Below, in pieces: positions 9,237 to 28,307 of a stretch of 64,000 nucleotides of DNA. Origin of the DNA: Laceyella sediminis (GTDB lineage Bacteria; Bacillota; Bacilli; Thermoactinomycetales; Thermoactinomycetaceae); the NCBI RefSeq assembly GCF_003003125.1, contig NZ_PVTZ01000002.1, forward strand, positions 124,001-188,000, given 5' to 3'. The first letter of the stretch is position 1, and each line of letters begins with the position of its first letter. The translations under genes and the position numbers were made by a program. Under the pieces are notes generated by a model. The model was given only the letters and a program-made list of their open reading frames with translations, searched no databases and was not told the DNA's origin.

Positions 9237-10196
9237 TCACGATGATGATAACAACAAACCGAGCAACAAGGCCTGTTGTGCGTGCAGGCGGTTTTCCGCT
9301 TGCTGGAATACCACCGATTGCGGGCCGTCGATTACGTCGGCGCTTACTTCCAAGCCACGATAAGCGGGCAAGCAGTGCATGAAAATCGCATCTGGTTTCG
9401 CGCGGCTCATCAGCTCCTGGTTCACCTGGTACCCAGCAAATGCCTGCGCCCGTTGCTCCTTCTCCTCTTCTTGCCCCATGCTCGCCCATACGTCCGTGTA
9501 CACGGCATCGGCGTCTTTGACCGCTTGCGCCGGATCATAACTGAAGGAGAAGGTAGAACCAGTGACGCGGGCGATCGCCTCCGCTTCTTGCCAGATCGCC
9601 GGACTGGGTTCATAGCCTTTCGGCGTGGAAATGGACAGATGCATGCCGGTCAGCGCCGCGATGTGCATCAACGAATGCAACACATTGTTGCCGTCTCCCA
9701 CATAGCAACAAATACGGCCGGCCAACTCCCCTTTGCACTCAGCCAGGGTCATGATGTCCGCCAAAGCTTGGCAGGGATGCTCCCGCTCCGTTAACCCGTT
9801 GATCACTGGAATGTCGGCCGCTTCTGCCAATTGGGTGACCAAGTCGTGGCTATGGGTGCGGATCAAAATCGCATCCACATACCGCGACAGCACGCGGGCC
9901 GTATCCTCTATCGTCTCTCCCCGCCCCAATTGCAACTCTTGTCGATGGAGATTCAGCGCGTGACCACCCAATTGGGCCATGCCCACTTCAAACGAAATGC
10001 GCGTCCGGGTCGACGGCTTATCAAAGATCATACCCAAATTTTTTCCTTGCAACGGGGCTTTCTTCACCCACTCCGCTTTGTCGGCCTTCAATTGCAGGGC
10101 ATGCTGCAAAAACGCTTCCGCCTCCTCAGGCCCCCAATTGGCCAAACCGATGAAATCCTTGTCTGTCCATTCCGTCGCCAAAGGCGCTTCGATCAT
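9237..10196 (-). CDS. argF: Ornithine carbamoyltransferase
   Basis: Converts ornithine and carbamoyl phosphate to citrulline in arginine synthesis. The 319-residue protein has the carbamoyl-phosphate motif STRTR (about residues 61-65), the HPCQALAD motif and the HCLPAYRG ornithine-loop motif near the C-terminus. It starts with an ATG after CTGAGGAAAC and is the last gene of the argCJBDF operon. There is a 116-bp gap from argD with no obvious promoter. Length and all signature motifs are normal. Confidence 0.95.
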   Translation of the reverse strand: MIEAPLATEWTDKDFIGLANWGPEEAEAFLQHALQLKADKAEWVKKAPLQGKNLGMIFDKPSTRTRISFEVGMAQLGGHALNLHRQELQLGRGETIEDTARVLSRYVDAILIRTHSHDLVTQLAEAADIPVINGLTEREHPCQALADIMTLAECKGELAGRICCYVGDGNNVLHSLMHIAALTGMHLSISTPKGYEPSPAIWQEAEAIARVTGSTFSFSYDPAQAVKDADAVYTDVWASMGQEEEKEQRAQAFAGYQVNQELMSRAKPDAIFMHCLPAYRGLEVSADVIDGPQSVVFQQAENRLHAQQALLLGLLLSSS

Positions 10197-10312
10197 GTTT
10201 CCTCAGCCCTTTCGATTTCGTTCTTCGCCGGCCCATTTCCATGAACGCTCCCCTCACCCGGAAGCAGCCATGGAAAAACGGTTTCAGCCGCCATCGGTGA
10301 ATCCGGCATGCG

Positions 10313-11497
10313 CTAGTCGGCTGGAACCGGGGCCGTCCATTCCCATTCCTGCACTACTTCTTTAATCAATGAAACGGCACGCACAATCTGGCCGTGCGTT
10401 ACCACCAAGGGCGGCAACAAGCGCAAGACGTTCTCCCCGGCCACCAGCGTGACCAATCCTTGCTCCAACAGCGATTTAACCACCGGGCCGGCCGAAGTGT
10501 TCAGCTCTATTCCTAACATCAGCCCTTCGCCGCGGATTTCCTGTACGCTTATTAGTCCGCGCAGCTCTTTCTCCAACAGTTGTCTTAGCCATGTACCTTT
10601 ATCCCGTATTTCAGCCATCATGGATGGTTGCGACAACTCTTCCAACACCGCTCGAGCCACCGCCATCGCCAAACGACCACCACCAAATGTCGTCCCATGT
10701 GATCCAGGTCCCAATACTTCTTTCCAAGCTGCTTTGGCTAGCATCGCCCCTACAGGGAAACCGTTGCCCAATCCCTTGGCCAAAGTGACCACATCTGGCT
10801 CAATCCCGTACTTTTGATAGGCGAACCAATGCCCTGTCCGGCCCATGCCAGTTTGCACCTCATCAATCATCAACAAGATGTTTTTCTCCCGACACCAAGC
10901 CGCCAACGCTTGGACAAACGCTGGATCAGCCGGTCGAACGCCTCCTTCCCCTTGCACCAGCTCCAAAAGCACCGCCGCCGTCGTCGCTCCTGTGGCTTGC
11001 TTGACCGCCTGAATGTCCCCGTACGGCAAAATGCGAAATCCCGCCGGCAATGGGGAGAAACCATCTTTCACTTTGTCTTGCCCGGTCGCCGTCAATGTCG
11101 CCAATGTCCGTCCGTGGAAAGAGCGCTGAAAAGTGATGATTTCCGGCTCCTGAATGATTTTCACCATCTTGGCCCAACGGCGGGCGAACTTAATCGCCGC
11201 TTCATTGGCTTCCGCCCCACTGTTGGCGAAAAAGACGGCACCCAATCCACTCATCTTGCACAAGAGGTTCGCCACTTCCTGTTGCAAGGAACTGGCAAAC
11301 AAATTGGACGTGTGCCAGATTCCTTGCGCCTGAGTGATGAGGGCTTGCTCAATCCGCGGGTGTCGGTGACCTAAGTTCACCACGCCGATCCCAGAGGCAA
11401 AGTCGAGATATTCCTTGCCAGACTCATCCACCAACACGGCGCCAGTTCCATCAACGAAGTGAATCTCATGCTGGAGATACGTCGGAAACAATCCCAT
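10313..11497 (-). CDS. argD: Acetylornithine aminotransferase
   Basis: PLP enzyme of the fourth arginine step (N-acetylglutamate semialdehyde to N-acetylornithine). 394 residues with the class-III aminotransferase signature: SGAEANEAAIKFAR (phosphate loop), LMIDEVQTGMGRTG and the Schiff-base lysine in VVTLAKGLGNGFPVGAML. The ATG at 11497 has AAGAGGTGATC upstream and overlaps the end of argB by 32 bp, indicating translational coupling. Confidence 0.95.
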   Translation of the reverse strand: MGLFPTYLQHEIHFVDGTGAVLVDESGKEYLDFASGIGVVNLGHRHPRIEQALITQAQGIWHTSNLFASSLQQEVANLLCKMSGLGAVFFANSGAEANEAAIKFARRWAKMVKIIQEPEIITFQRSFHGRTLATLTATGQDKVKDGFSPLPAGFRILPYGDIQAVKQATGATTAAVLLELVQGEGGVRPADPAFVQALAAWCREKNILLMIDEVQTGMGRTGHWFAYQKYGIEPDVVTLAKGLGNGFPVGAMLAKAAWKEVLGPGSHGTTFGGGRLAMAVARAVLEELSQPSMMAEIRDKGTWLRQLLEKELRGLISVQEIRGEGLMLGIELNTSAGPVVKSLLEQGLVTLVAGENVLRLLPPLVVTHGQIVRAVSLIKEVVQEWEWTAPVPAD

Positions 11498-12263
11498 GGT
11501 CGATCACCTCTTGATTGACGATGCGGGTACCCGCACCCTGTTTAAACCCATTGGCATGAGCGCCGTTCACAATACGGACTTCGGGAATCCCTTGCGCCAG
11601 CGATTGCAAAGCCGACCTCGCTTTCGGAATCATGCCTCCCGTGATCGCCCCGTCCGCAATCCCCTGTTCTATGGTCGCGGGGTCTGCTTCCTGGAGCAAT
11701 TGGCCACCGATTTGGATGCCGTCAACGTCACTTAATAAAATCAGCTGGTCGGCACACATAGCAACAGCAATCGCCGCCGCAGCCTCATCCGCGTTGATGT
11801 TGTACACTTGACCATCTCCATCCACTCCCACAGAGGCGATGACTGGCATCCAGCCTTGCTTAAGCACATGATCGAGCGCCTCCACATTCACGTCGGTGAC
11901 ACGGCCGACATAACCCAACTCAGGGGCCGCGGGTTCCGCCTTCAACAGCTCTAAGTCCACCCCGCTTATGCCAATGGCCGCCACTTGTTGGTTGATCAGT
12001 TGCGTCACCAATTGCTTGTTCACATGTCCGGACAAAGCCATCTGCACCAGCGACAACGTCTCTTCATCGGTCACGCGCCGCCCTTCGATGAACAAGGGCT
12101 TTTTCCCTTGCTTTTCCATCAATCGCGATATCATCGGGCCGCCGCCATGAACGATGACCACTTGCGTTCCTGCGCGCCATGCGTCAAAACATTGGGCAAA
12201 AAACGCCGGATGAATCCGTTCCAGAACACTGCCTCCCACTTTTAGCACAATCAGCTGTTCCAT
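11466..12263 (-). CDS. argB: Acetylglutamate kinase
   Basis: Phosphorylates N-acetylglutamate. The protein starts MEQLIVLKVGGSVLE with the KxGG nucleotide motif, then VIVHGGGPMISRLM (substrate site) and LSDVDGI near the C-terminal half; 265 residues. The ATG at 12263 after GGAGAGGCTG is preferred over an upstream in-frame start at 12317 that lies inside argJ. No N-terminal arginine-sensing helix is evident, so feedback control cannot be inferred. Confidence 0.95.
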   Translation of the reverse strand: MEQLIVLKVGGSVLERIHPAFFAQCFDAWRAGTQVVIVHGGGPMISRLMEKQGKKPLFIEGRRVTDEETLSLVQMALSGHVNKQLVTQLINQQVAAIGISGVDLELLKAEPAAPELGYVGRVTDVNVEALDHVLKQGWMPVIASVGVDGDGQVYNINADEAAAAIAVAMCADQLILLSDVDGIQIGGQLLQEADPATIEQGIADGAITGGMIPKARSALQSLAQGIPEVRIVNGAHANGFKQGAGTRIVNQEVIDHGIVSDVSPA

Positions 12264-12279
12264 CAGCCTCTCCTTCCCG

Positions 12280-13515
12280 TTACGTGCGGTAGCTGGCATT
12301 GATGCGCACGTATTCATATGTCAAATCACATCCCCACGCCGTCGCCGTGGCCTGGCCCCGATGCAGATTGACGCGGATGATTACTTTCTCCTGGTTCAAC
12401 TCCGCGCGCGCCTGTTCTTCATCAAATAGCAACGGCATGCCTCCCCCAATCACTTGCACGTGTCCCAGGTAAACATCGATTGATTCCGGTCGCAAAGAAG
12501 GCTCGCCGTAACCAGCCGCGCACACAATTCGCCCCCAATTGGGGTCAGCGCCAAACACCGCCGTCTTCACCAGGCTGGAACCGACCACCGCTTTGGCGAT
12601 GTTTTGCGCTTCCTGTTCGTGGATCGCCCCTTCAACCACGACCTCGATCAAGCGCGTCGCCCCTTCTCCGTCACGGGCGATCATCTTGGCTAACTCTTGG
12701 CAGACATACTGAAACGCTTGTTGGAATTTGGACCAATCAGCATGGTGCATGTCGAGGGGAGCATGCCCGGCTTCCCCACTTGCCATCACCAAAACCATGT
12801 CGTTGGTGCTCGTATCCCCATCGACTGTGATCATGTTGAATGTCTGATCAGTGGTCTTCCACAGCAAAGATTGGAGAATCTCCGGTTCAATCACCGCATC
12901 GGTAGTGATAAACGCCAGCATGGTGGCCATATTGGGCTTAATCATGCCGGAGCCTTTGGCCACCCCTGCAATGGTCACCGGTTTGCCCTCAATCTCCACG
13001 CTCACTTCCACTTGCTTCGTGCATGTGTCAGTCGTCAAGATCGCTTCCGCAAACGAAGTGTCTGGCGCTTTTAACTTCGGTACCAGCGCTTCAATGCCCT
13101 GAATCACCTTGTTCATCGGCATCAATACACCAATAACACCCGTCGAAGCTACCGCCACCATGCTTTGCGGACAGGCAAGTTCTTCGGCCAGCTTCGCCCG
13201 CATCGCATAGGCATCCATCATCCCTTGCCGTCCAGTGCAGGCATTGGCGTTGCCGCTGTTGACGACCACACCTCGCAATTTCCCGGACACTCCCAAACTA
13301 TCTTGGGTTACTTGGATCGGCGCCGCCTGAAAGGCATTGACTGTATAAACAGCGGCAGCCGTCGCTTCCCGTTCGCATACGATCGCTCCCAAATCGGGCC
13401 GCTTGCGCTTGATGCCCACATGCATCCCTGCCGCTTTAAACCCTTTGGGCGAAGTGATGCACGCTTCCTTTTGCACTGTGAATGCAGGTGACAAAACCCC
13501 TGATTCTTTCCCCAT
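12280..13515 (-). CDS. argJ: Bifunctional glutamate N-acetyltransferase / ornithine acetyltransferase
   Basis: Recycles the acetyl group from acetylornithine to glutamate. 411 residues. The self-cleavage and nucleophile site is visible as KGSGMIKPNMATMLAF, where the Thr of MATM becomes the N-terminal nucleophile of the beta chain. Later GADPNWGRIV is also family-typical. The ATG at 13515 follows GGGGGAG. The operon has no argA or argE, consistent with the cyclic acetyl pathway. Confidence 0.95.
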   Translation of the reverse strand: MGKESGVLSPAFTVQKEACITSPKGFKAAGMHVGIKRKRPDLGAIVCEREATAAAVYTVNAFQAAPIQVTQDSLGVSGKLRGVVVNSGNANACTGRQGMMDAYAMRAKLAEELACPQSMVAVASTGVIGVLMPMNKVIQGIEALVPKLKAPDTSFAEAILTTDTCTKQVEVSVEIEGKPVTIAGVAKGSGMIKPNMATMLAFITTDAVIEPEILQSLLWKTTDQTFNMITVDGDTSTNDMVLVMASGEAGHAPLDMHHADWSKFQQAFQYVCQELAKMIARDGEGATRLIEVVVEGAIHEQEAQNIAKAVVGSSLVKTAVFGADPNWGRIVCAAGYGEPSLRPESIDVYLGHVQVIGGGMPLLFDEEQARAELNQEKVIIRVNLHRGQATATAWGCDLTYEYVRINASYRT

Positions 13516-13531
13516 CTTCGCTCCCCCTTTT

Positions 13532-14563
13532 TTATGGAAACAGCGGCGACTGCATCAATCCGGCTGTGGCAGCCCAACCCATCCGCAGATTAGCGTTTTG
13601 AACCGCTTGCCCCGCTGCGCCTTTCATCAGATTGTCGATCACAGACAAGACCGTGATCCACCCCGTCCGTTCATCCACATGGACACCGATATCGCAAAAG
13701 TTGCTACCTTGTACCGCTTTGGTCGACGGCCAGCCAGACTCCACGATGCGAACAAATGGCGCGTCCTCATACACTTCCTCATACATGTGAAGCACCTCTG
13801 TTGTCGTATATTTATGCAACATCGGTGCATAGAGACTAACCAAGATCCCCCGGTTCATCGGCACCAAATGCGGAACAAACCGCACCCGCACTTCTGCACC
13901 CGCAAGCCGTTTAGCCGCTTGCTCAATCTCAGGGATATGCTGGTGTCCATCCACTTTGTATGGGCGTAGATTCTCATTCACTTCACTAAAAAGCAATGAC
14001 TGATCCACCTTGCGCCCTGCGCCGGTCACACCCGACTTAGCATCGATCACCAAAGCCCGGTGGTCAATCATCCGATGCTGAAGCAGGGGAAGCAAGCCCA
14101 GCAGCGTCGCCGTCGGATAACAACCGGGATTGGCGATCAGATCAGCGGTACGAATCTCTTCTGCAAACCATTCCGGAAGTCCGTACACCGCTTCGGCAAG
14201 CCACTTGTCTGGCGCCGCTTTTCGGTTGTACCAATCCTCATAGCTCCGTCCGTCTTTCAGGCGGAAATCCCCCGACAGGTCAATAACCAACTTCCCTTGC
14301 GCCCGCAACTGAGGGGTTAATTCTCCGCTCACACCGGGCGGTGTCGCCAAAAACACCAGCTCAGCCTCCTGGCCGATCTGTGCGATATCAAGCTCCTGAA
14401 AAGTGTAGGCGAGATGTCGCAAATGTGGATAAGACTGGGACAATGCATCTCCCGCCTGTGAAGTGGAAATCAGCATCGCCAGTTCCAAATGCGGATGCCC
14501 TTCGATTAGCCGAATCAACTCCGCCCCGCCATACCCCGTCGAACCGATAACCGCTGTTTTCAT
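13532..14563 (-). CDS. argC: N-acetyl-gamma-glutamyl-phosphate reductase
   Basis: NADPH-dependent reduction of acetylglutamyl phosphate. 343 residues starting MKTAVIGSTGYGGAELIRL (Rossmann motif), with the catalytic cysteine in IANPGCYPTATLLGLLPL and the GHQHIPEIEQ motif. The frame extends to 14578, but the ATG at 14563 follows GGGGAGGCTAG and is preferred. First gene of the argCJBDF operon, with a promoter/ARG box 50-80 bp upstream. Confidence 0.95.
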   Translation of the reverse strand: MKTAVIGSTGYGGAELIRLIEGHPHLELAMLISTSQAGDALSQSYPHLRHLAYTFQELDIAQIGQEAELVFLATPPGVSGELTPQLRAQGKLVIDLSGDFRLKDGRSYEDWYNRKAAPDKWLAEAVYGLPEWFAEEIRTADLIANPGCYPTATLLGLLPLLQHRMIDHRALVIDAKSGVTGAGRKVDQSLLFSEVNENLRPYKVDGHQHIPEIEQAAKRLAGAEVRVRFVPHLVPMNRGILVSLYAPMLHKYTTTEVLHMYEEVYEDAPFVRIVESGWPSTKAVQGSNFCDIGVHVDERTGWITVLSVIDNLMKGAAGQAVQNANLRMGWAATAGLMQSPLFP

Positions 14564-14611
14564 CACTAGCCTCCCCATTACTTGTCACATGCCATTGGAT
14601 CGTTTTGCATC

Positions 14612-18302: not shown

Positions 18303-20828
18303 TTATCCATTTTTCAAGCAACAGTTTTTGTACTTTTTGCCGCTTCCGCAAGGGCATGGGTCATTGCGTCCCACTTTATCCGCCCGGCGAATCGGCTCCT
18401 TCTTCGGCGCATCCGCTTCCTGCTCGGAGCTACCGGAAACGGCGGTCGGATTGACAGCGACTTCTTCGCGCTCCAACTCTTCTTCTTCCGCGATGACCGA
18501 TTTCATCACATACTTGACAATCTCTTCTTGGATTTCCTGAATCATCGCCTCAAACATGGCGAAGCCTTCAAACTGGTAAGCGCGAAGCGGATTGTCTTGC
18601 CCGTACGCGCGCAAGTGGATCCCTTGGCGCAATTGTTCCATCGCGTCGATGTGATCCATCCACTTCCGGTCGACAGCGCGCAGAATCACCACTTTGGAAA
18701 ACTCCTGCAAGCGCTCGTTCCCCAGTTCCTCTTGGCGTTCTTGGTAGTATTTCTTCACTTCTTCAAAAATGTCGTCCACCATCTTCGACGGATCTTTGCC
18801 TTCCAAATCTTCTTCTGTCAGGCGACCTTCGGGCAGTAGGTTATTGTTGGCATACTCCACAATCGCCTCGAGATCCCATTCCTCTTCCAAGTCCTCGGAG
18901 GTGTGGACTTGCACGATGTTCTCAATCGCCGCTTTGACCATGTTGAGCACGACATCCTTGAGGTCGTCACTTTCCAACACTTCGCGGCGTTGCTTATAAA
19001 TTACTTCCCGCTGTTGATTCAAGACATCGTCATACTGCAACACCCAACGACGGGCGTCAAAGTTGTTGGCCTCCACCTTGCGTTGCGCATTGGCCACCGC
19101 ACGGGAGAACATTTTGCCTTCGATGGGCTGGTCTTCAGGCAACCCCAACCGCTCCAGCATGCTTTCGAGGTTTTCCCCACCGAAGCGGCGCATCAGATCA
19201 TCCGACAAGGAGAGGTAAAACTGGGAGGAACCTGGATCGCCTTGGCGTCCCGAACGTCCACGCAACTGGTTGTCGATCCGCCGGCTCTCATGCCGCTCGG
19301 TTCCGATGATGTGCAAACCACCCAGTTCGGCTACACCTTCTCCCAGCACGATGTCCGTTCCGCGGCCAGCCATGTTGGTGGCGATGGTCACCGCCCCACG
19401 CTGTCCGGCTTGCGCCACAATCTCCGCTTCTCGGGCGTGGTTTTTCGCATTTAACACCTCATGCGGGATGCCGCGTCTCTTCAGCAACCGGGACAGGCGC
19501 TCCGATTTTTCGATCGAGACAGTACCTACCAGCACAGGTTGCCCTTTGGCGTGGCGTTGAGCAATCTCTTCCACCACCGCGTTAAACTTGGCCTCTTCCG
19601 TTTTGTATAGCACATCCGACAAGTCTTCGCGCAATTGCGGGCGGTTGGTCGGTATCTGATAAACATCCATGTTGTAAATTTTGCGGAACTCTTCTTCTTC
19701 CGTCTTTGCCGTACCGGTCATCCCAGACAGCTTTTTGTACAGGCGGAAGTAATTTTGCAGGGTGACGGTGGCCAGCGTCATGCTTTCACGCTGCACTTGT
19801 AACCCTTCTTTGGCTTCAATCGCCTGGTGCAACCCATCGCTGTAGCGGCGGCCATACATCAAACGACCTGTAAATTCATCCACGATCACGACGCCGTCTT
19901 CATTCACTACATAATCTTCGTCGCGCTTCATTATGGCATGCGCTTTCAATGCCTGTTGAATGTGATGGTTCAACGTAACGTGCTTCATGTCGTACAAGTT
20001 GTCGACACCGAGGAAGTTCTCCACTTTTTTCACGCCGTCTTCCGTCAGCGATACCTGTTTGGTCTTGATGTCGATCGTGTAATCATCGCCTTCTTTCAAG
20101 CGACGCACGATGTTGTCGGCGGTGTAGTACAAGTCGGTCGCCTTGTTGGCTTGCCCACTGATAATGAGCGGCGTCCGCGCTTCGTCGATCAAGATGCTAT
20201 CCACCTCGTCGATGATCGCGAAGTTCAGCTCGCGCTGGGTCAATTGTTCCTTGTACAACACCATGTTGTCCCGCAGATAGTCGAAGCCAAACTCATTGTT
20301 CGTACCGAAGGTGATATCCGCTTGATAAGCGGCCCGCTTTTCCTCTGGCGACATCATCGGCAGATTTAGGCCCACAGTTAACCCCAGGAATTCAAACACC
20401 TGGCCCATCCACTCTTTGTCCCGCTTGGCAAGATAATCGTTGACGGTAACGATATGGACACCCTTGCCTTCCAACGCGTTCAAATACGCGGGCAAGGTGG
20501 ACACGAGGGTTTTCCCTTCCCCCGTTTTCATCTCAGCGATGTCCCCTTGGTGAAGCACCATCCCCCCCACGAGCTGCACGCGGAAATGGCGCATGTTCAA
20601 CACGCGTTTCGCCGCTTCACGCACCACGGCAAACGCCTCTGGCAGAAGGTCGTCCAGCGTCTCCCCTTTTTCCAGTCGGGCCCGGAACTCATCCGTTTTT
20701 CCTCTTAATTCCGCATCGCTCAATGCTTGAAACTCTGCTTCCAGCGAGTCGATGTGATCCGCGATGCTGAAAAATTTCTTCAATTGCCGTTCGTGTGGAT
20801 CGAATAATTTCTTAAGGGTACCTAACAC
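18303..20828 (-). CDS. secA: Preprotein translocase motor SecA
   Basis: ATPase driving protein export through SecYEG. 841 residues, normal length. Walker A is [10 protein letters not shown] (about residues 96-105), the DEAD-like box is [17 protein letters not shown], and the second-domain motif is NMAGRGTDI. The C-terminal zinc-binding tail is [15 protein letters not shown]. Translation starts at a GTG (20828) behind AGGAGATG. The hpf-secA-prfB order is that of Bacillus, here with two polysaccharide genes inserted between hpf and secA. Confidence 0.97.
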
Positions 20829-24006: not shown

Positions 24007-24564
24007 TCACTCAGGTTCGATCAACCCGTATTTCCCATCTTTCCTTTTGTAAATCACATTCACTTGGTTGGATGCGGCGTTGGTGAACACGAAGAAGTTG
24101 TGTCCAAGCATGTCCATTTGAAGCATTGCTTCTTCCGCATCCATCGGCTTGAACTCGAAACGCTTTGTTCGCACGAGATCAAGCTCTTCCTCATCTTGCA
24201 CCGCCACGGGAGCCGCTTCCATCTCCCGCGCATGCTCTTTGTAACCACTGCGGAAGCTAACATCCTGGCGTGCTTTGCGGTTAATCCGCGTTTTATACTT
24301 ACGGATCTGCCGCTCAAGCTTTTCAACCACTAAGTCGACGGATGCGTACATGTCCTCGCTGGATTCTTCAGCACGGACAATCACCCCAGGGAAGGGAATC
24401 GTCACTTCCACCCGATGCTGATCTTTGATCACAGCCAAAACGGCGTGGGCTTCAGTCTCGCCGACATCCTCAAAATACCTTTCGAGGCGGCTCAGCTTCC
24501 GCTCCACAAATTCATGCAACGCATCTGTTACTTCAAGGTTATGACCACGGATGACATATCTCAT
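24007..24564 (-). CDS. hpf: Long-form ribosome hibernation promoting factor
   Basis: Binds the decoding site and dimerises ribosomes into 100S particles in stationary phase. 185 residues. The N-terminal S30AE domain (YVIRGHNLEVTDALHEFVERKLSRLERYF) is joined by a charged linker to a C-terminal dimerisation domain (LVRTKRFEFKPMDAEEAMLQMDMLGHNFFVF), which marks the long form. The ATG at 24564 follows GGAAGGAGG; the frame extends to 24645 without a ribosome site. Neighbour order with secA is as in Bacillus. Confidence 0.95.
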   Translation of the reverse strand: MRYVIRGHNLEVTDALHEFVERKLSRLERYFEDVGETEAHAVLAVIKDQHRVEVTIPFPGVIVRAEESSEDMYASVDLVVEKLERQIRKYKTRINRKARQDVSFRSGYKEHAREMEAAPVAVQDEEELDLVRTKRFEFKPMDAEEAMLQMDMLGHNFFVFTNAASNQVNVIYKRKDGKYGLIEPE

Positions 24565-24749
24565 AGAGAAATCCTCCTTCCGCTTTGTACTACTTCTATT
24601 CCCCGATTTTGATGAAATCCCTCCTCTTTTTTTACAAAAATACAAAAGAAAATTAAGGAAATATTAAATAAACACACACAGAATTGTAATATTATTCAAA
24701 AAGGGTAACTTGCGTTAGGCCTGACTTTCTTTTTTTTGGAAATTAAAAA

Positions 24750-24801: not shown

Positions 24802-24999
24802 TTACTTTTTCACAACGTTTGCAGCCTGTGGTCCACGGGAACCCTCTACGATTTCAAATTCAACTTCTTGACCTTCTTCCAGCGACTTGAAGCCTTCCAT
24901 TTGAATAGCGGTGTAGTGTACGAATACGTCTTCGCCACCCTCACGCTCGATGAAGCCATAGCCTTTTTCCGCGTTAAACCACTTGACTTTGCCTTGCAT
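24802..24999 (-). CDS. Cold-shock protein (CspA family)
   Basis: RNA chaperone of 65 residues: [32 protein letters not shown], with both RNP motifs (KGYGFI and VFVHY). The ATG at 24999 follows AGAAGGGATT. Stand-alone gene with its own terminator. The reading frame extends three codons upstream, but the family N-terminus begins at MQGKVKWF. Confidence 0.95.
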
Positions 25000-25203
25000 A
25001 AAACACAATCCCTTCTCAAATCGTAGTCATCGCATAAAGAACGCACTCTTATGCCACTTAACTATACCATTTGTCTAAAAATACTGTCAAGGTAGTACTT
25101 TAAGCCTACAAACGGGCTCCCTCTTTGCTCAAACGAGCGCCGATAGTCAGATAAAGCGAATGGAAAATGGCATGGGAACGTAGGCCCTTAGTCAGCGTAG
25201 TCA

Positions 25204-25926
25204 TCACAACACTTTACTCAAAAACGCCTTCAAGCGTTCGTGTTTAGGCCGGGAGAAGATCTCAGACGGCGAACCTTCCTCAACAATCCGACCATCATCC
25301 ATAAAGATGACCCGGTCGCTCACTTCACGGGCGAATCCCATCTCATGGGTGACGACGACCATGGTCATCCCTTCCTCGGCCAATTGTTTCATCACGTCCA
25401 ACACTTCTTTAACCATCTCCGGGTCCAGAGCGGAGGTGGGCTCGTCAAACAGCATCAACTTGGGCTCCATTGCCAAAGCCCTGGCGATGGCAACCCGCTG
25501 CTTCTGCCCGCCCGATAACTCGCCGGGAAAAGCTTCGGCCTTGGACCGCAATCCCACTTTATCCAACAGCGCCAACGCTTTGGCCTCAGCCTGCTCTTTT
25601 GGCCATTTTCGCACATGAATCGGCGCCAACGTGATGTTGTCCAACACGTTTTTATGCGGAAACAATTCAAACTGCTGAAACACCATTCCCACTTCCGTGC
25701 GAACGCGGTTAATGTCCGTCTTGGGGTCCGTCAGGTCAAACCCGCCGACCACGACGCGGCCCGAACTCACTCGCTCCAACAGATTAAGGCAACGCAGAAA
25801 AGTGCTTTTGCCGGAACCGCTGGGCCCAATCACACAAACCACTTCTGATTCTCCGATTCGTACATGGATGTCTTTGAGCACATGATGATCGCCAAACCGC
25901 TTATTGAGATTTTCCACCTGGATCAT
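25204..25926 (-). CDS. Polar amino-acid ABC transporter, ATP-binding protein
   Basis: 240 residues. Walker A is GPSGSGKST (about residues 35-43), with Q-loop [10 protein letters not shown], signature [15 protein letters not shown], Walker [14 protein letters not shown] and H-loop [13 protein letters not shown]. The GlnQ/ArtP group is indicated. The ATG at 25926 follows AAGGGTGAG, 6 bp after the permease stop. The frame extends to 26043 inside the permease and is not used. Substrate inferred as arginine or a related basic amino acid from ARG-box-like sites upstream of the operon. Confidence 0.92.
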
Positions 25927-25931
25927 TTGTC

Positions 25932-26618
25932 TCACCCTTTCCGTCCGTTTGGATCTAACCGTCTTTCCATATAGCCCACCAGACGGGATAACACCAGGGT
26001 CAGTACCAAGTACACCAAAGCCGCGGTAATGTAAGGGGGCCATCTTACAAACGTGTTCTTGGCCGTGGCGAACGCCGCATATGTGATGTCGTTGACGGCG
26101 ATGACCGTGACCAGGGAGCTATCTTTGAGCAAGGCGATAAACTCATTGCCTAACGGCGGCAACATGCGCTTAAAAGCTTGGGGGAGAACAACCAGCTTCA
26201 TCGCTTGCCGATAAGTCATCCCAAGCGAGCGCGCCGCTTCCATCTGTCCTTTGTCAATCGATTGAATACCACCCCGGAAGATTTCGGCGATGTACGCCCC
26301 AGCATTTAGCGACAGTGCGATAAAACTGGAAGTCGCGGCATCAGGCGCAGGGAGGCCGAGCACATCTTGGAACAACGCCGGCAATACGGCAAAATGAACA
26401 GCCAAAATTTGGAGCAAAAGCGGTGTCCCCCTGAAGAGATCCACATAGGCGACCGCCGGCAGACGCAACCACGCTTTGTCCGATAATCTCATCAATCCCA
26501 ATATAAGTCCGATGAACAAACCCGCTACGACCGCCACCACGGTTAGTTGAATGGTCATCCAGAGACCACGGATGAACAACTCCTGGTATTCTACGATGAC
26601 AGACCAATTCCACTCCAT
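25932..26618 (-). CDS. Polar amino-acid ABC transporter, permease
   Basis: 228-residue HisM/GlnP-type permease with about five membrane helices, including the EAA loop region [46 protein letters not shown]. The ATG at 26618 is preferred; a TTG at 26630 lies too close to the GGGGG ribosome site. The gene starts directly next to the first of four DnaA boxes that fill the 240-bp gap to the substrate-binding protein gene. Confidence 0.92.
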
Positions 26619-26620
26619 AG

Positions 26621-26737
26621 TTATCCACAACCCCCTTCACTTGAACTCTCCTTTTTTCAGTTATTAACAGACTTATCCACATTATCCACAACGTCCATAG
26701 GCGGCTTTCCACACAATTTATAAACAAGTTATCCACA
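26621..26737 (+). promoter_or_regulatory. DnaA-box cluster
   Basis: Four perfect TTATCCACA boxes in the same orientation: 26621-26629, 26673-26681, 26682-26690 (abutting the previous one) and 26729-26737. Near matches are TTATTAACA (26661-26669) and TTTCCACAC (26706-26714). The cluster lies between the binding-protein and permease genes of an ABC operon. No AT-rich unwinding element or dnaA/dnaN gene is nearby, so it is more likely a DnaA-titrating or regulatory cluster than an origin. Confidence 0.85.
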
Positions 26738-26861
26738 GAAGCAAGGGTTGCGCATAGGAGCGACTGAAGTGACCGTCGCACGGGTGCGCGAACGAGGATT
26801 TGTCCCCGTTCTCACTCCGCTCAATGCTTGTCCCCCGTGTGTAAATGTGGTTTTACGCCGT

Positions 26862-27635
26862 TTACTTGTGATCACCAAAATATTTTTGATAGATTTTGTC
26901 ATACTCGCCGTTCTCTTTTACTTTTTTCAAGCCTTCATTCAGCTTGTTCAGCATATCCTTGTTGCCCTTCTTCACGGCCATCCCGTATTGTTCAACCGGC
27001 AAGGAATTGTCCTCCACAATGTTGAATTTGCCTTCGCCCAATTTTTTGTTGAACTCCACCACCACAGCACTATCGACTACCACAGCGTCCAAGCGACCGA
27101 TCTGCAAATCATTGATGGCCGAAGGCGTTTCGTCGTAAGCCTTAATCCCTTCATACGTCTTGCCAAACACTCCTTGGACAACTGCTTCTCCCGTAGTGGC
27201 TGCCTGCACCCCGATCTTCTTCCCTTTCAATTCTTTCAGCGTCTTGATATTTGAATTTTTCGGCACCAGGATATATTGCTTGGCGTCAAAATAAGGCGCT
27301 GTAAAATCAACGGTTTGTTTGCGGTCATCAGTAATCGTAATCGCCGCCACGCCGACATCCACTTTGTCCCGGCTGAGTCCTTCAAAAATAGCGTCAAATC
27401 CCATATGAGTGATTTGCACTTCCATCCCCACGGCTTTGCCAATGGCGCGAATCAATTCGGCATCAAACCCGCTGATTTCCCCATTTCCCTCTTGAAATTC
27501 AAACGGAGGAAACTCGGCATTGGTACCAACCTGAATCACATTGTCTGCTTTCGTCTGCGACTGCCCCCCGCAACCGGTTAGCAAACCGGACAGAATCACT
27601 GCCAACGCCGCGAACAGAATCCCTTTTTTTCTCAT
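26862..27635 (-). CDS. Amino-acid ABC transporter substrate-binding lipoprotein
   Basis: 257 residues: lipoprotein signal with lipobox LLTGC, then a type-II periplasmic-binding fold (VIQVGTNAEFPPFEFQEGNGEISGFDAELI...). It is of the ArtP/GlnH class that binds polar amino acids. ATG at 27635 (spacing 8 from GGAGAG) is favoured over ATG 27641. First gene of the operon; a consensus promoter with ARG-like boxes lies upstream. The gap to the permease contains the DnaA cluster and a compact GC hairpin near 26775-26815. Confidence 0.92.
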   Translation of the reverse strand: MRKKGILFAALAVILSGLLTGCGGQSQTKADNVIQVGTNAEFPPFEFQEGNGEISGFDAELIRAIGKAVGMEVQITHMGFDAIFEGLSRDKVDVGVAAITITDDRKQTVDFTAPYFDAKQYILVPKNSNIKTLKELKGKKIGVQAATTGEAVVQGVFGKTYEGIKAYDETPSAINDLQIGRLDAVVVDSAVVVEFNKKLGEGKFNIVEDNSLPVEQYGMAVKKGNKDMLNKLNEGLKKVKENGEYDKIYQKYFGDHK

Positions 27636-27658
27636 CGCCATCTCTCCTTTTTTAATAA

Positions 27659-27672
27659 TGAATATCTAATCA
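27659..27672. promoter_or_regulatory. ARG-box-like site near transporter start
   Basis: TGAAT-ATCT-AATCA resembles the ArgR/AhrC core TGAAT-N4-ATTCA with two differences. It lies about 25 bp upstream of the binding-protein start codon. Confidence 0.4.
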
Positions 27673-27713
27673 TTGCAAAATATCGTGCTCCAATAAGTCG
27701 TTTGAATGGATTT

Positions 27714-27742
27714 ATTATACATTTGAATGATTATTTATGCAA
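27714..27742 (-). promoter_or_regulatory. Promoter of the amino-acid ABC operon with ARG-like box
   Basis: TTGCAT (27737-27742), 17-bp spacer, TATAAT (27714-27719) on the minus strand. The spacer contains TGAAT-GATT-ATTTA (27724-27737, plus strand), one mismatch from the ARG core. Confidence 0.65.
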
Positions 27743-27902
27743 TAACAAGACTTTTCCATTCATGTTCATCACTTCACAATAAACCTTTTCGTATGCCCAT
27801 TTTCCTCTTTCTGTATATCTCCGATTCAATTCACCCTATCTTATAAGTATGCAAAACACCCATTTACCTCAATCGCTTTGGCGCCTTCTCCCTACAAACA
27901 AC

Positions 27903-27940
27903 AAACACCCCGGCCAAGTGTACCCTTGGCCAGGGTGTTT
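27903..27940 (-). terminator. Terminator after hup
   Basis: AAACACCC(c)GGCCAAG / CTTGGCC(a)GGGTGTTT, 15 bp with one mismatch and a 6-nt loop, followed by a T-rich tract on the minus strand. Confidence 0.8.
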
Positions 27941-27947
27941 GCTTCAA

Positions 27948-28223
27948 TTACTGGTTTACCAGTTCTTTCAATTGTTTGCCTGGTTTAAAGGCTGGGACTT
28001 TGCTAGCTTCAATCGTAATTTCTTCTCCCGTTTGGGGATTGCGGCCTGTCCGCGCTGCCCGTTCACGCACTTCAAAATTGCCGAAGCCGATCAGGGTCAC
28101 CTTCTCTCCTCCGCTCAGCGCTTCAGAGATCGTTTGAAAAACGCTGTCAATGATCAGGCCCGCTTCCTTCTTTGTTTTTCCCGTGCTTTCCGCTACACGT
28201 TCAATCAATTCCGTTTTGTTCAT
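27948..28223 (-). CDS. hup: HU-type DNA-binding protein
   Basis: Nucleoid protein that bends DNA as a dimer. 91 residues: [29 protein letters not shown], with the arm motif [25 protein letters not shown] at 28223 behind GGAGAG; an in-frame TTG at 28229 precedes it but gives the less usual length. Monocistronic with its own terminator. Confidence 0.96.
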
Positions 28224-28307
28224 GTTCAACTCTCCTTCAATTTAGGTACTGTCTATGAAAATGCCTATCATAAGGTGTTGACGAGTTTGATCGTTTCTAT
28301 ACCTCTT

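Follow-up and report, generated by a model that had tools for sequence, protein, structure and literature searches.

The role of DnaA-box clusters outside oriC in Gram-positive bacteria is unsettled, and two reviews, in the parts accessible (PMC5295017, PMC13220808), rest on the Bacillus subtilis set. Six such clusters occur in B. subtilis (Okumura et al. 2012, as summarized in these parts of the reviews), and deletion of all six leads to early initiation. One of the reviews, in its accessible text, gives the clusters no significant role in initiation, with a strong phenotype confined to removal of the complete set of six. Whether B. subtilis has regulators of the interconversion of the ADP and ATP forms of DnaA is stated to be unknown in the accessible sections of the 2026 review (PMC13220808). 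According to the available parts of PMC4447404, the region 3′ of gcp (tsaD) is one of eight high-affinity DnaA regions of B. subtilis, with an apparent Kd of 0.15 µM for the ATP form and 0.33 µM for the ADP form. In E. coli, datA needs an IHF site with a set spacing to its boxes, and the head-to-head arrangement of boxes I and II of the DARS loci is essential (PMC10380432, accessible part).

The window analysed here is a stretch of 64,000 nucleotides (contig C2, 124001-188000) of the 3.39-Mb genome of Laceyella sediminis. An exact-match scan was carried out for the perfect DnaA box TTATCCACA, and four copies were found between positions 26621 and 26737, all on the + strand. The outer box on the binding-protein side is at 26729..26737, two boxes abut each other at 26682..26690 and 26673..26681, and the fourth (26621..26629) immediately precedes the permease ATG and follows a Shine-Dalgarno-like AAGGGGG. 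The cluster occupies the gap that separates the genes for the substrate-binding protein (SBP) and the permease in an ABC operon; the operon is encoded on the minus strand, where the box reads TGTGGATAA. The four identical boxes in one orientation, the abutting pair at 26673 and 26682, and the position between the binding-protein and permease genes are thus as the first-pass annotation had described them. It had also listed two extra near matches; both are present, TTATTAACA at 26661..26669 on the + strand and CTTTCCACA at 26705-26713, and are weaker than was implied, with 2 mismatches to the box each. A one-mismatch scan gave no further site within the cluster, and no perfect boxes were found spaced 6 nt apart. 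The abutting pair, a 3-nt spacer and the degenerate third box at 26661 make up a 30-bp core (26661..26690, minus strand; TGTGGATAA TGTGGATAA GTC TGTTAATAA) that is conserved in relatives.

The clustering was compared with chance. The genome carries 56 perfect boxes; when 56 sites were placed at random 200,000 times, four never fell within 117 bp and three did so in 18 placements. In first-order resamples of the gap, two or more boxes were seen in 0 of 20,000. Both results bear out the earlier view that a chance origin is very unlikely. Apart from the dnaA region (C2:312039-316099), the cluster was the sole 120-bp stretch with four boxes in a genome-wide scan; contig C27 has three perfect boxes in 83 bp. 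The gap DNA showed no dispersed repeat when compared with its own genome, the matches being ~28 bp or less and several of them the box sequence. A stretch at 26748-26835, lying between the outer box and the SBP gene, has 60 per cent GC compared to 51 per cent for the window; it is common to Laceyella sacchari (G001), by eye absent from the other gaps compared, and had no more than short matches in its own genome.

In layout, the cluster resembles the B. subtilis clusters in having several consensus boxes away from oriC in excess of chance, and differs from them in lying at another locus, HU-csp-hpf-secA. The hpf, secA and csp regions are absent from the best 20 of 269 B. subtilis DnaA regions in the accessible part of PMC4447404. 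Likeness to the B. subtilis gcp-ydiF site is seen in other Bacilli, where a three-box core lies on the same 3′ side of tsaD (gcp). As with E. coli datA, this is an oriC-proximal non-coding DnaA-box locus with a conserved place, but its boxes abut head-to-tail. A three-box core is shared with DARS1/DARS2; however, in place of head-to-head boxes I and II, the window has all its boxes head-to-tail, with the four perfect ones on one strand. The abutting head-to-tail pair is also a feature of the basal unwinding system of oriC, whereas the window locus is without DnaA-trios, and the trio-plus-box pattern (up to 2 mismatches) was absent at the cluster.

The genes of the locus, all on the minus strand, were assigned by model matches, with synteny in addition for the conserved neighbours. 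The transporter of the polar amino-acid ABC type consists of the SBP gene (26862..27641), the permease gene (25932..26618) and an ATPase gene (25204..25926) whose best model, GlnQ, is below cut-off. The conserved neighbours are genes for an HU-family nucleoid protein (27948..28229; best model HU-beta, below cut-off), a cold-shock protein (csp, 24802..25008) and a ribosome hibernation factor (hpf, 24007..24567), and secA (18303..20828), recognized by its Pfam SecA domains, is the anchor gene. Arginine specificity, proposed for the transporter in the first-pass annotation, could not be established, as every arginine model scored below its cut-off; the substrate is not assignable from model scores. 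The ARG-like boxes said to accompany the operon were not recovered either: an ARG-box pattern, with up to 2 mismatches allowed, gave 6 matches in the window (2.2 expected), and the region just before the SBP gene had none. A promoter and terminator scan of 25000-28300 found 3 and 2 respectively, no excess over shuffles (3.3 and 3.8). Elsewhere in the window, genes with Pfam semialdehyde dehydrogenase, ArgJ, amino-acid kinase, class-III aminotransferase and OTCase matches lie at 9237-14578; this run fits arginine biosynthesis, is ~11 kb from the transporter, and has a perfect DnaA box at 14424 inside it. The genes named comFA, comFC and MotB are presumably such, their Pfam matches being weak or general.

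Conservation of the cluster in related genomes had been proposed as a check. The consensus core in relatives is, on the operon strand, TGTGGATAA-TGTGGATAA-NNN-TGTGNATAA. Searched with up to 2 mismatches, it was present in 25 of 42 genomes of the order, and a reversed control gave 0. There were 34 matches order-wide, 23 at the HU-csp-hpf-secA locus and 11 elsewhere (3 beside tsaD, 2 at a thrC/HD-domain gene, 1 just before dnaA, 5 in G004, G015 and G016). secA was found in 41 of the 42 genomes. The usable loci numbered 39, with G006 (no secA match), G034 (a fragment) and G007 (hpf as the sole anchor) dropped; for G023, which has no HU match, the stretch was set to 746 bp upstream of csp. Of these loci, 24 have the core within 3 mismatches, 7 others have at least two forward boxes and 8 have one box or none, so that 31 of 39 retain the core or at least two forward boxes. 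In Laceyella sacchari DSM 43356 (G001, L183) the core is at contig position 432295-432324. Boxes numbered 3.03 per kb in the non-coding stretch from HU to csp, compared with 0.29 per kb across the remaining, mostly coding sequence of these loci.

Twenty of 24 core rows share TTATNCACA as the third box; G000, G001, G009 and G018 deviate. Information content was 1.7 bits per position in the core, a value inflated because the rows were chosen by the core pattern, and ~0.2 in the flanks. Constraint was also present outside the search pattern, with 2.0 bits at a T two bases past the third box and 1.0 bit at the middle of the spacer, in 24 rows that are related and therefore not independent observations.

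To what extent the cluster follows the transporter was judged from the same 39 loci. The 25 loci with a transporter comprise 17 with the core, 4 with two or more boxes and 4 with none or one; the corresponding numbers for the 14 loci without it are 7, 3 and 4. Conservation whatever the neighbouring genes, the criterion adopted in this analysis, is thus seen in 31 of 39 loci overall and in 10 of the 14 without a transporter. Cluster and transporter presence were not associated (Fisher P 0.42; core alone, P 0.32), the samples being small and related. Genomes of the same genus give a direct contrast: G032 lacks the transporter and G036 has it, with boxes in both; G037 and G024 differ in the transporter and keep the boxes; G038 and G039 differ likewise with boxes in both, those of G038 being without the full core. 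On a tree of four proteins, with gaps for missing genes and midpoint rooting, the transporter changed state 9 times and the cluster 5 times. In the transporter-less core loci the order is HU-core-csp, followed by hpf and secA in most. The core tracks the gene order HU-csp-hpf-secA and not the transporter.

The search was extended beyond the order. With up to 1 mismatch, the core was found in 75 of 398 genomes of the class (reversed control 0). Among 24 of these 75, chosen by the author for follow-up, it lies 1-9 kb upstream of secA on secA's strand in 19; in the remaining five it is on another contig (G071, G146) or more than 1 Mb from secA (G205, G240, G390). Thirty context loci, all outside the order, were also read from the 75 core-bearing genomes. 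Sixteen belong to family f27, with the core just before the SBP gene of the same kind of operon, and three more have it before an SBP gene (L145-L147). Six are beside tsaD (L120-L125), three are beside hpf with no transporter seen within the 3-kb stretch, and two have dnaA neighbours, dnaA itself being seen in L149 with the core upstream. Among the best 80 of 528 named hpf loci, the core was present within 3 mismatches in 11, from Laceyella, Lihuaxuella, Marininema, Melghirimyces, Brevibacillus (3/3), Paenibacillus (3/7) and a Bacillales MAG. At the same threshold it was absent from the other 69 of these 80, including all those of Oceanobacillus, Virgibacillus, Halobacillus and Liquorilactobacillus and 4/7 of Paenibacillus.

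Distances to the origin were estimated from dnaA, which in this genome starts near C2:312422, ~162 kb from the cluster. The core-dnaA distance is 152-276 kb in the 16 order genomes in which the two share a contig, the values for G009, G030, G039 and G040 assuming that the contig closes on itself. In f27 the core is on the side upstream of dnaA at 547 kb (G222), 566 kb (G333) and 590 kb (G213), and on the other side at 359 kb (G270) and 694 kb (G317). Conserved gene order alone may suffice as the explanation of the distance. The 3′ flank of tsaD in this genome (C18, L263) has four boxes with at most one mismatch, on the side of the B. subtilis gcp-ydiF site. The identity of tsaD was confirmed in 9 of 9 tsaD-adjacent core loci; in G023 the gene across the core from tsaD is a 535-aa frame and not ydiF. 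G023 and G028 have the core at two stations, one on each side of oriC: near secA and beside tsaD.

These comparisons suggest, with a probability of roughly two in three, that the cluster is an oriC-proximal candidate DnaA-binding site outside oriC, of the kind that restrains initiation. Probably it serves replication control and not the switching of the transporter, a reading favoured because the boxes are kept at HU-csp-hpf-secA, or near secA, with or without the transporter. The first-pass annotation had left two readings side by side; the replication-control locus gains from this conservation, and the link to arginine transport is disfavoured by the boxes of transporter-less loci (10/14) and by the transporter loci with none or one box (4/25). 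DnaA would bind the abutting pair and the third box cooperatively. Early replication of the locus after each initiation would give twice as many strong sites, which would draw DnaA from oriC and damp re-initiation. Placement between the SBP and permease genes would be incidental. Against such titration stand the 8 of 39 order loci with none or one box, 4 of which have the transporter, the lack of the core in 69 of the 80 named hpf loci, the missing hpf, secA and csp regions among the best 20 of B. subtilis, and the review that sees no significant role for the B. subtilis clusters. A geometry that stays fixed while adjacent genes come and go suggests that DnaA binding itself is under selection, and it is this fixed three-box design outliving the turnover of its neighbours that makes the locus of interest.

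No report of the locus or the core was found in searches of open-licence literature by title and abstract opening. The cluster is most likely of a known kind, at a place for which that literature yielded no report, and its novelty is limited because the kind is already known.

DnaA could instead act here as a transcription factor that represses or roadblocks transcription from SBP into permease, tying the make-up of the transporter to the replication state. The core separates SBP from permease in 17 of 17 transporter-bearing core loci, and lies just before SBP in all 16 f27 loci as well as in L145-L147; DnaA activates sda in B. subtilis (PMC4447404, accessible part). Of the 25 loci with a transporter, 8 also have a box where the permease appears to start; all 8 come from the window's own family (G000, G001, G002, G004, G009, G010, G015 and G016), and a local effect of that box on the permease is possible there. 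However, the position of the core relative to the operon varies by lineage, and retention of the cluster without the transporter, its loss beside some transporters and the independence of the two argue against this explanation, which we regard as unlikely. For the preferred reading, a replication-control site, the 30-bp core would offer a small target on which titration and transcription could be told apart in Laceyella's relatives, e.g. Brevibacillus.

Also unlikely is the proposal that the core is a dedicated DnaA device of Bacilli. Its abutting boxes and fixed-spacing third box would nucleate an oligomer of ATP-DnaA, perhaps helped by the HU protein of the neighbouring gene; shortly after initiation, this oligomer would alter how much DnaA is available or its nucleotide state. 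Its function would then be datA-like with a different box geometry, and G023 and G028 would have two stations of it.

Control by DnaA of the downstream csp-hpf unit, linking replication state to translation, appears distinctly improbable. In the 7 loci that have the core but no transporter, 126-382 bp separate it from csp downstream, and in Paenibacillus L198, L201 and L212 csp likewise follows after a few hundred bp; csp and hpf are downstream of the core partly by construction, because the loci were anchored on them. When the transporter is present, the permease and ATPase genes separate the core from csp, and in the window a promoter-like site (25090-25061; TTGACA-18-TATAGT with a TG before the second hexamer, 11/12 matched) lies immediately ahead of csp, at 1.6 kb beyond the core. 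Moreover, csp was not found in the box-bearing loci G012, G013, G019 and G022.

The 9-mer may in principle be the site of another regulator, or part of an RNA element that resembles DnaA boxes. The spacer and the +2 base have constraints of their own, and binding of DnaA to these boxes is a prediction. But the 9-mer is identical to the perfect boxes around the genome's own dnaA, the same design recurs upstream of dnaA (L149) and beside tsaD (L120-L125), and an Rfam scan of 26500-28000 gave no match up to E = 1, which together make this very improbable. A second replication origin or its relic was rejected as barely conceivable: the abutting pair does resemble the one that adjoins the trinucleotide run in the genome's own dnaA-dnaN gap, but the trio search of this genome gave C2:314026, C2:381963 and C27:3089, with no trio run beside the cluster.

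Besides the dnaA-dnaN site, two of these trio matches again combine a trinucleotide run with a neighbouring pair of DnaA boxes, at C2:381963-382086 (L069), ~70 kb from dnaA near a contig end, and at C27:3089-3197 (L071), on a 6-kb contig. None of the other 22 family genomes had more than one match to the trio-plus-box pattern. In the genome of the window, a second three-box core occurs at C19:26283-26312 (L070), between thrC and an HD-domain gene; in G001 the thrC/HD-domain core, at C2:670703, lies on the opposite side of dnaA at a distance of ~76 kb. Similar cores that end in TGTGGATAT are located ~17 kb from dnaA in G004 and ~21 kb from it in G016; that of G015 is on a contig that lacks the dnaA match.
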